Shown here piece after piece: positions 7,475-8,039 of a stretch of DNA of 9,174 bases. Under the pieces are notes generated by a model, which was given only the letters and a program-made list of their open reading frames with translations, searched no databases and was not told where the DNA came from. A program made the position numbers and the translations under genes. Numbering within the stretch: the first letter of the stretch is position 1; each line of letters begins with the position of its first letter. The stretch comes from Chloroflexota bacterium (lineage in GTDB: Bacteria > Chloroflexota > Dehalococcoidia > Lucifugimonadales > UBA826), in contig PBDP01000002.1 of NCBI GenBank assembly GCA_002718095.1, forward strand, positions 59,101 through 68,274, given 5' to 3'.

Positions 7475-7551
7475 TGGTACGCCTGGAGGGATTCGAACCC
7501 ACGACCTATTGCTTAGAAGGCAACCGCTCTATCCAACTGAGCTACAGGCGC
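7475..7551 (-). tRNA. tRNA-Arg (anticodon UCU), CCA encoded
   Basis: The minus strand folds as a full cloverleaf: acceptor GCGCCTG with CAGGCGT, D arm GCTC/GAGC around AGTTGGATA, anticodon stem GTTGC/GCAAT with loop CTTCTAA (anticodon TCT, reading AGA/AGG), a 5-nt variable loop, and a T arm with TTCGAAT loop. A73 is followed directly by encoded CCA (7475-7477). Two oddities appear: G1.U72 is a wobble pair, and the T stem GTGGG/CCCTC contains a U50-U64 mismatch. AGA is a frequent arginine codon in such AT-rich genomes. Confidence 0.96.
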
Positions 7552-7561
7552 ACATACATAA

Positions 7562-7590
7562 ATTCTCTCTAATTAATTCCTTTTGGTCAA
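7562..7590 (-). promoter_or_regulatory. Candidate promoter of tRNA-Arg
   Basis: On the minus strand, TTGACC (7585-7590) is followed after exactly 17 bp by GAGAAT (7562-7567), 10 nt before the tRNA 5' end. The -35 hexamer lies at the outer edge of the left arm of the 28-bp inverted repeat, so anything binding that repeat could affect tRNA transcription. Position and spacing are good; the -10 match is 4/6. Confidence 0.45.
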
Positions 7591-7644
7591 TCCCATACCC
7601 AATAGTGATTAATGCGATTAATCACTATTGGGTATGGGATTGAC
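7586..7644. repeat. Perfect 28-bp inverted repeat with 3-bp spacer
   Basis: Arms 7586-7613 and 7617-7644 are exact reverse complements around the spacer GCG; each arm begins GTCAATCCCATACCC on its outer side. With an internal loop, pairing could extend through CTTTT (7580-7584) and AAAAG (7649-7653). It lies between the divergent tRNA-Arg and HTH genes, so it is not placed as a terminator of either, and no U-tract follows directly. It could be an operator, a cruciform-forming site, a remnant of a small mobile element, or a rearrangement junction. The two arms place TTGAC-type hexamers facing outwards on both sides. Confidence 0.93.
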
Positions 7645-7655
7645 TTTGAAAAGAC

Positions 7656-7677
7656 CAGAAATGTCTCAGAAATGTCT
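7656..7677. repeat. Perfect 11-bp tandem duplication
   Basis: CAGAAATGTCT occurs twice head-to-tail with no mismatch (7656-7666 and 7667-7677), 11 bp after the large inverted repeat and just upstream of the consensus -35 at 7687. One helical turn per unit means both copies face the same side of the DNA, as for paired activator or repressor sites. It could equally be a simple duplication. Confidence 0.85.
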
Positions 7678-7686
7678 GAAAACCCA

Positions 7687-7715
7687 TTGACACTGCATTG
7701 CTGTATTATTAACAT
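7687..7715 (+). promoter_or_regulatory. Candidate promoter of the small HTH gene
   Basis: A perfect TTGACA (7687-7692) is followed after 17 bp by TAACAT (7710-7715), which keeps the key T1, A2 and T6 of the -10 consensus. Transcription would begin near 7722, leaving a short leader of about 25 nt before the chosen ATG. Confidence 0.55.
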
Positions 7716-7746: not shown

Positions 7747-7971
7747 ATGGCTAGAAAAACAAAGAAAATGCTTGCTGTAGAGGAACGATTCCGACAACCG
7801 TTGGAGGATATGTTGCCTGAAATGGTTACCGAGCAAGGTTTAACCGGAACTGCTAATTACTTAGGTGTCAGCAAGGCAACCTTAGGATATTGGCTGCTTA
7901 AATTTCGGATAGATGTTCGCCGAGTAGCGCTAGCTCCTGGAGACACAATACAGGTGAATAGAATTAAGTAA
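7747..7971 (+). CDS. Small helix-turn-helix DNA-binding protein
   Basis: This 74-residue protein starts MARKTKKMLAVEERF and contains a compact helix-turn-helix: a first helix near EERFRQPLEDMLPEMVTEQG, then LTGTANYLGVSKATLGYWLLKF (about 32-53), where TANYLGVSKATLGYWL matches the 'helix, turn, recognition helix' pattern. A short basic tail with LAPGDTIQVNRIK follows. No catalytic domain is present, so it is probably a transcription factor or a small element-linked regulator. The longer frame begins at 7612, but ATG 7747 has GGAG (7737-7740) at 6 nt and a promoter just upstream; ATG 7744 and 7735 are alternatives. By eye the gene is richer in G+C than the polysaccharide genes. It is alone, between the inverted repeat and a strong terminator. 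I do not recognise a named family. Confidence 0.72.
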   Translation: MARKTKKMLAVEERFRQPLEDMLPEMVTEQGLTGTANYLGVSKATLGYWLLKFRIDVRRVALAPGDTIQVNRIK

Positions 7972-7993: not shown

Positions 7994-8039
7994 AAAAAAG
8001 ATAGCCCTCAAGAGTTAATTCTTGAGGGCTATCTTTTTT
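7994..8039. terminator. Bidirectional intrinsic terminator shared by the HTH gene and smpB
   Basis: Perfect 20-bp arms (7994-8013 and 8020-8039) around a 6-nt loop form a stem with the GC-rich core GATAGCCCTCAAGA. Its outer ends are six A on the left and six T on the right, giving a U-tract in both directions. It ends the rightward HTH transcript 22 bp after its stop codon and the leftward smpB transcript. The smpB stop codon (plus 8029-8031) lies inside the right arm. Confidence 0.93.

Follow-up and report, generated by a model that had tools for sequence, protein, structure and literature searches.

A perfect 59-bp palindrome upstream of a small HTH gene in a SAR202 genome: probable correction of an ancestral quasipalindrome

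Introduction

Quasipalindromes are hotspots of template switching at which an imperfect inverted repeat turns perfect, a process established in Escherichia coli and known from the Ripley model, the E. coli thyA hotspot and the lacZ QP reporters (PMC7202029). In hairpin evolution, a single template switch can yield a long perfect stem, as seen for the hairpins of RNA genes (PMC8794818). The palindrome described here would share with the former the perfection of an imperfect repeat by arm copying, and with the latter the formation of a long perfect stem in one event. Unlike the E. coli cases, it is reconstructed by comparing genera of a marine lineage that is uncultured, and the tract involved is long, reaching about 19 bp past the core; unlike the RNA-gene hairpins, it sits in a divergent promoter region. 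Operators are also found between divergent genes, beside the gene of a regulator. The site shares its position and a quasipalindromic core with such operators, but differs from them in that its conserved core is asymmetric and the protein binding it is only putative.

The window, the whole stretch of 9,174 nucleotides that was analysed, comes from a Chloroflexota genome of 1.44 Mb whose named relatives are SAR202 Chloroflexi. SAR202 is an abundant group of the deep ocean.

The palindrome and its neighbourhood

The palindrome is flanked by two genes that are transcribed away from it. To its left lies a tRNA-Arg gene with anticodon TCT (7475–7551, minus strand), which reads leftwards, and to its right a gene for a 74-residue helix-turn-helix (HTH) protein (7747–7971, plus strand), a member of an orphan family of the SAR202 order. 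The HTH gene is followed by a bidirectional terminator-like hairpin (7994–8039), a neighbour that lies outside the element, and then by smpB. The pairing of the tRNA with the HTH gene is widely kept in the family. An Rfam search returned the tRNA and, apart from it, only hairpin look-alikes below threshold.

The left arm (7586–7613) and the right arm (7617–7644) are complementary at 28 of 28 positions around a 3-nt spacer, GCG, so that the whole palindrome spans 59 bp (7586–7644). Long repeats were surveyed in this one contig of 279 kb, where no other perfect inverted repeat is as long; three contig-sized control sequences from a first-order Markov model reach 12 bp at most. As single-stranded DNA it has a folding energy of −30.4 kcal/mol (z = −14.5). 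The −35 element of the tRNA-Arg promoter, TTGACC (7585–7590, minus strand), extends into the left arm at its outer end and is paired with a −10 element, GAGAAT, at 7567–7562; its position is conserved in relatives. The HTH-gene promoter on the other side (7687–7715, plus strand; TTGACA, a 17-nt spacer and TAACAT) is conserved as well. The initial annotation had described a perfect 28-bp inverted repeat, with a candidate tRNA −35 in its left arm, that is not placed as a terminator. The survey agrees with all three statements, the palindrome being upstream of both flanking genes. An automatic terminator match was accordingly rejected, since the hairpin is 5′ of both genes and has only ATTGACTTTG behind its stem.

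Next in length among the contig's perfect inverted repeats is one with 22-bp arms and an 8-nt loop (C2:98119–98170). It also sits between divergent genes, beside a small HTH gene, and its counterpart is absent from G006, a member of the same family.

A conserved core upstream of the HTH gene

The central part of the palindrome (7605–7625) corresponds to a 21-bp element with the family form GTGATTAAT-N4-TTAAGCAY. This core is present between tRNA-Arg and the HTH gene in 11 of the 12 family relatives that carry the HTH gene, the exception being G005, which keeps the gene without the core. When the window was left out, the best common 21-mer scored 184, against 144 at most in 100 shuffles, a score inflated by relatedness, as eight of these genomes belong to one genus. 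The core is nonetheless common to four genera, that of the window included. In the eleven relatives it is asymmetric, with GTGATTAAT as its left half and TTAAGCAY as its right half, and forms four to seven of nine possible pairs.

The position of the core follows the HTH promoter. At all 12 sites (the window and 11 relatives) it lies 67–79 bp from the HTH −35, whereas it is separated from the tRNA −35 by 25–29 bp in genera g1 and g3 and by 69–72 bp in g2. The fixed distance to the one and the variable distance to the other indicate that the core belongs to the HTH gene. With up to one mismatch, all occurrences of the core lie 5′ of the HTH gene, except for a single match in the host genome that falls within a coding gene and was rejected as a further element. 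The core therefore looks like a local element rather than a regulon site. Taken together, these comparisons suggest that the core, a quasipalindrome with slight asymmetry, is probably an ancestral cis-element of the HTH gene and the binding site of a dimeric regulator, perhaps of the HTH protein itself. We infer a function as a local operator-like site, which would act about 72 bp upstream of the HTH −35.

Origin of the perfect palindrome

The window departs from the family form in its right half alone, the left half being unchanged. Every one of the 11 relatives has TAAGC in the right half. The window alone has TAATC there, its right half being TTAATCAC, the exact mirror of the window's own left half and a form seen nowhere else among the family sites. 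The flanks differ in the same manner. Of the 19 positions outside the core, all are paired in the window, compared to 1–7 in ten relatives and 12 in one, so that pairing beyond the core is at about chance level in ten of the eleven relatives. It is implausible that 19 additional pairs arose one base at a time. The derived arm is thus the reverse complement of its partner, including positions that are otherwise fixed in the relatives, and an imperfect inverted repeat occupies the same place in those relatives.

The simplest history is probably a quasipalindrome correction of the ancestral core, in which the right arm was overwritten with a copy of the left one through a template switch during replication; this is read from a comparison across genera, the nearest relatives examined belonging to other genera. 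The left arm is taken as the old arm and the right one as the copy because the tRNA −35, whose position is conserved, lies in the left arm, and the distance from this −35 to the tRNA is similar in relatives. Furthermore, the distance between the two −35 elements is only about 8 bp off that in the nearest genus, which amounts to about 4 bp of growth on each side and therefore speaks for replacement rather than insertion.

We infer a switch from left to right with the following course. At the quasipalindrome, in the lineage of the window, the nascent strand would fold back on its short inverted repeat during replication, so that some 28 nt of the left arm would be copied as their reverse complement before the strand switches back. 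The copy would replace the right half-site together with its flank and duplicate the tRNA −35 in mirror image, leaving a perfect palindrome of 59 bp. Selection for a symmetric site could likewise favour such products.

Comparable repeats are found in other families. In G023, perfect arms of 18 bp lie at the corresponding place upstream of the same HTH gene. The left half (AAACAACACGCA) recurs unchanged in G059, its genus sister, where the right arm is imperfect, which makes G023 a second, weaker case of a perfected repeat. In G017, from a third family, perfect arms of 16 bp lie upstream of the same gene. Across other families, the best inverted repeat reaches p ≤ 0.05 in 11 of 59 upstream regions, against 3 expected, a count that may include unrelated hairpins. 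Sequences such as ACACG-N-TAAAT-NN-CGTGT probably represent the core element too, a reading made by eye in which G003 provides the link, although the core forms of other families differ strongly and homology with the core is likely rather than proven.

Alternative explanations

The palindrome as a whole could be a selected, extended high-affinity operator, both 28-bp arms being needed by a regulator, the HTH protein or another, that binds as a dimer or tetramer. Its position between divergent promoters and beside an HTH gene fits this explanation, as do the recurrence of long perfect repeats 5′ of the same gene in other families and the similar setting of the 22-bp repeat elsewhere in the contig. 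However, the arms outside the core are not conserved, with roughly chance pairing in ten of eleven relatives. Moreover, the HTH protein is 81–92% identical across the family, and it is hard to see why its operator should require 28-bp arms in a single genus. We consider an extended operator unlikely. The suggestion in the initial annotation that the repeat is an operator thus finds partial support in the conserved 21-bp core, a putative operator that follows the HTH promoter (67–79 bp, versus 25–72 bp to the tRNA −35), but not in the 28-bp perfection, which is not the conserved part and is probably mutational.

It is quite improbable that the palindrome is an artefact of assembly or whole-genome amplification. 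Fold-back during amplification can produce perfect short hairpins, and the 22-bp repeat without counterpart in G006 might be seen in this light. The relatives, however, have homologous flanks in the same order, and a chimera would be expected to join unrelated or wholly inverted flanks rather than 28 bp centred on a conserved core. Since both flanks are homologous and ordered as in relatives, the amplification chimera raised earlier is not supported, and the palindrome is probably not chimeric.

A cruciform at the palindrome is physically possible. A more far-reaching proposal combines two parts, namely that the HTH protein is an order-wide DNA-binding protein linked to chromosome architecture or replication, with a compound control region of phased GAAA motifs and an upstream quasipalindrome, and that the perfected palindrome forms a supercoiling-sensitive cruciform which removes the −35 of tRNA-Arg(UCU) from the duplex. 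If true, it would couple tRNA-Arg(UCU) to DNA topology; as a whole, we regard it as a long shot.

That the site serves in chromosome dimer resolution (as dif) or as some other element of the terminus is highly improbable. This idea was suggested by the location of the HTH gene, which lies at 0.35–0.49 of the circle from dnaA in eight near-complete relatives. It also draws on the asymmetric half-sites around a short centre, on the XerC/XerD pair encoded in the host genome, on the lack of a canonical dif above control in the order (60 genomes) and on a local skew switch at the HTH locus in G020 and G080, with a weak one in G048. Against this, no switch of strand-specific GC3 skew is seen at the site, either in the window's own 279-kb contig or in the family member G006 (323-kb contig), or at the HTH locus in G025, G037 and G081, and the switches in G020 and G080 have opposite signs. 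The arms contain no canonical XerD half-site, and the core lacks ATTATGTNAA and the canonical 11-6-11 arrangement of XerC and XerD half-sites. A dif or terminus function is therefore not supported for the window's element or for its family.

Several observations on dif and skew were made alongside. The canonical-looking dif matches common to genus g2 are few, all lie in coding sequence and were rejected. Judging from the 60 genomes and the XerC/XerD pair of the host genome, the SAR202 order seems to use a dif that departs from the canonical sequence. The skew switch in G029 and G025 lies about 30–60 kb from the HTH locus. In G020 (C1, near 441,880) and G080 (C1, near 2,402,806), the sign of GC3 skew changes near the HTH locus in opposite senses, and G080 has several further sign changes. 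In G018 (C1, 1,145,001–1,210,000), the HTH locus sits in a local patch of near-zero skew within a replichore that is otherwise strongly skewed, and this patch is perhaps a foreign or inverted segment.

That the palindrome is a remnant of a mobile or repeated small element, as the initial annotation had also considered, is barely credible despite an inverted repeat adjoining a tRNA gene, because no second copy of the arm occurs elsewhere in the host genome, in 97 related genomes (up to 3 mismatches) or in IMG/VR (exact matches), while the core is ancestral at the site and the palindrome is found 5′ of the tRNA gene rather than in its 3′ end.

The HTH protein and its control region

The HTH protein is present in 71 of 98 genomes and keeps 61–81% identity to the window's protein beyond the family. 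It has no Pfam match over the cut-off and no NCBIfam match, and a search of IMG/VR found no relative. The predicted structure (pLDDT 86) consists of three helices and a beta hairpin, and on this model the 74-residue protein is a winged HTH protein. Its fold matches are weak, the best being Fis with a Z-score of 4.7, followed by the ArgR type at about 4, with a Foldseek E-value of 0.16 at best; the search of solved structures gave no match of note.

Four GAAA motifs, phased at 9–11 bp, are located between the palindrome and the HTH promoter (7648–7681, plus strand), just 5′ of the −35, and such an array is found directly upstream of the HTH −35 throughout the order, with conserved spacing. In 67 genomes, GAAA pairs at distances of 10, 11, 20, 21, 30 and 31 bp occur 49, 31, 29, 30, 22 and 14 times, respectively, whereas shuffled sequences give about 0.5 pairs at each distance. 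In motif searches over the whole order, the phased GAAA repeats dominate over the core. The array, rather than the palindrome, may be the HTH protein's own binding site. The phasing of the GAAA motifs points to head-to-tail binding by the small HTH protein or to intrinsic curvature.

Conclusions

The palindrome is most likely a new instance of a known mutation process and not a new kind of element. Quasipalindrome correction, the history favoured here, would make it an example of template switching as it occurs naturally among uncultured bacteria. However striking its symmetry, a perfect palindrome is not necessarily a binding site that has been perfected; set against its relatives, this one resolves into a conserved 21-bp core and a probable mutational overprint. 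At the same time, the locus draws attention to an uncharacterised, strongly conserved small protein of SAR202, with a putative role in DNA binding, and to its control region.
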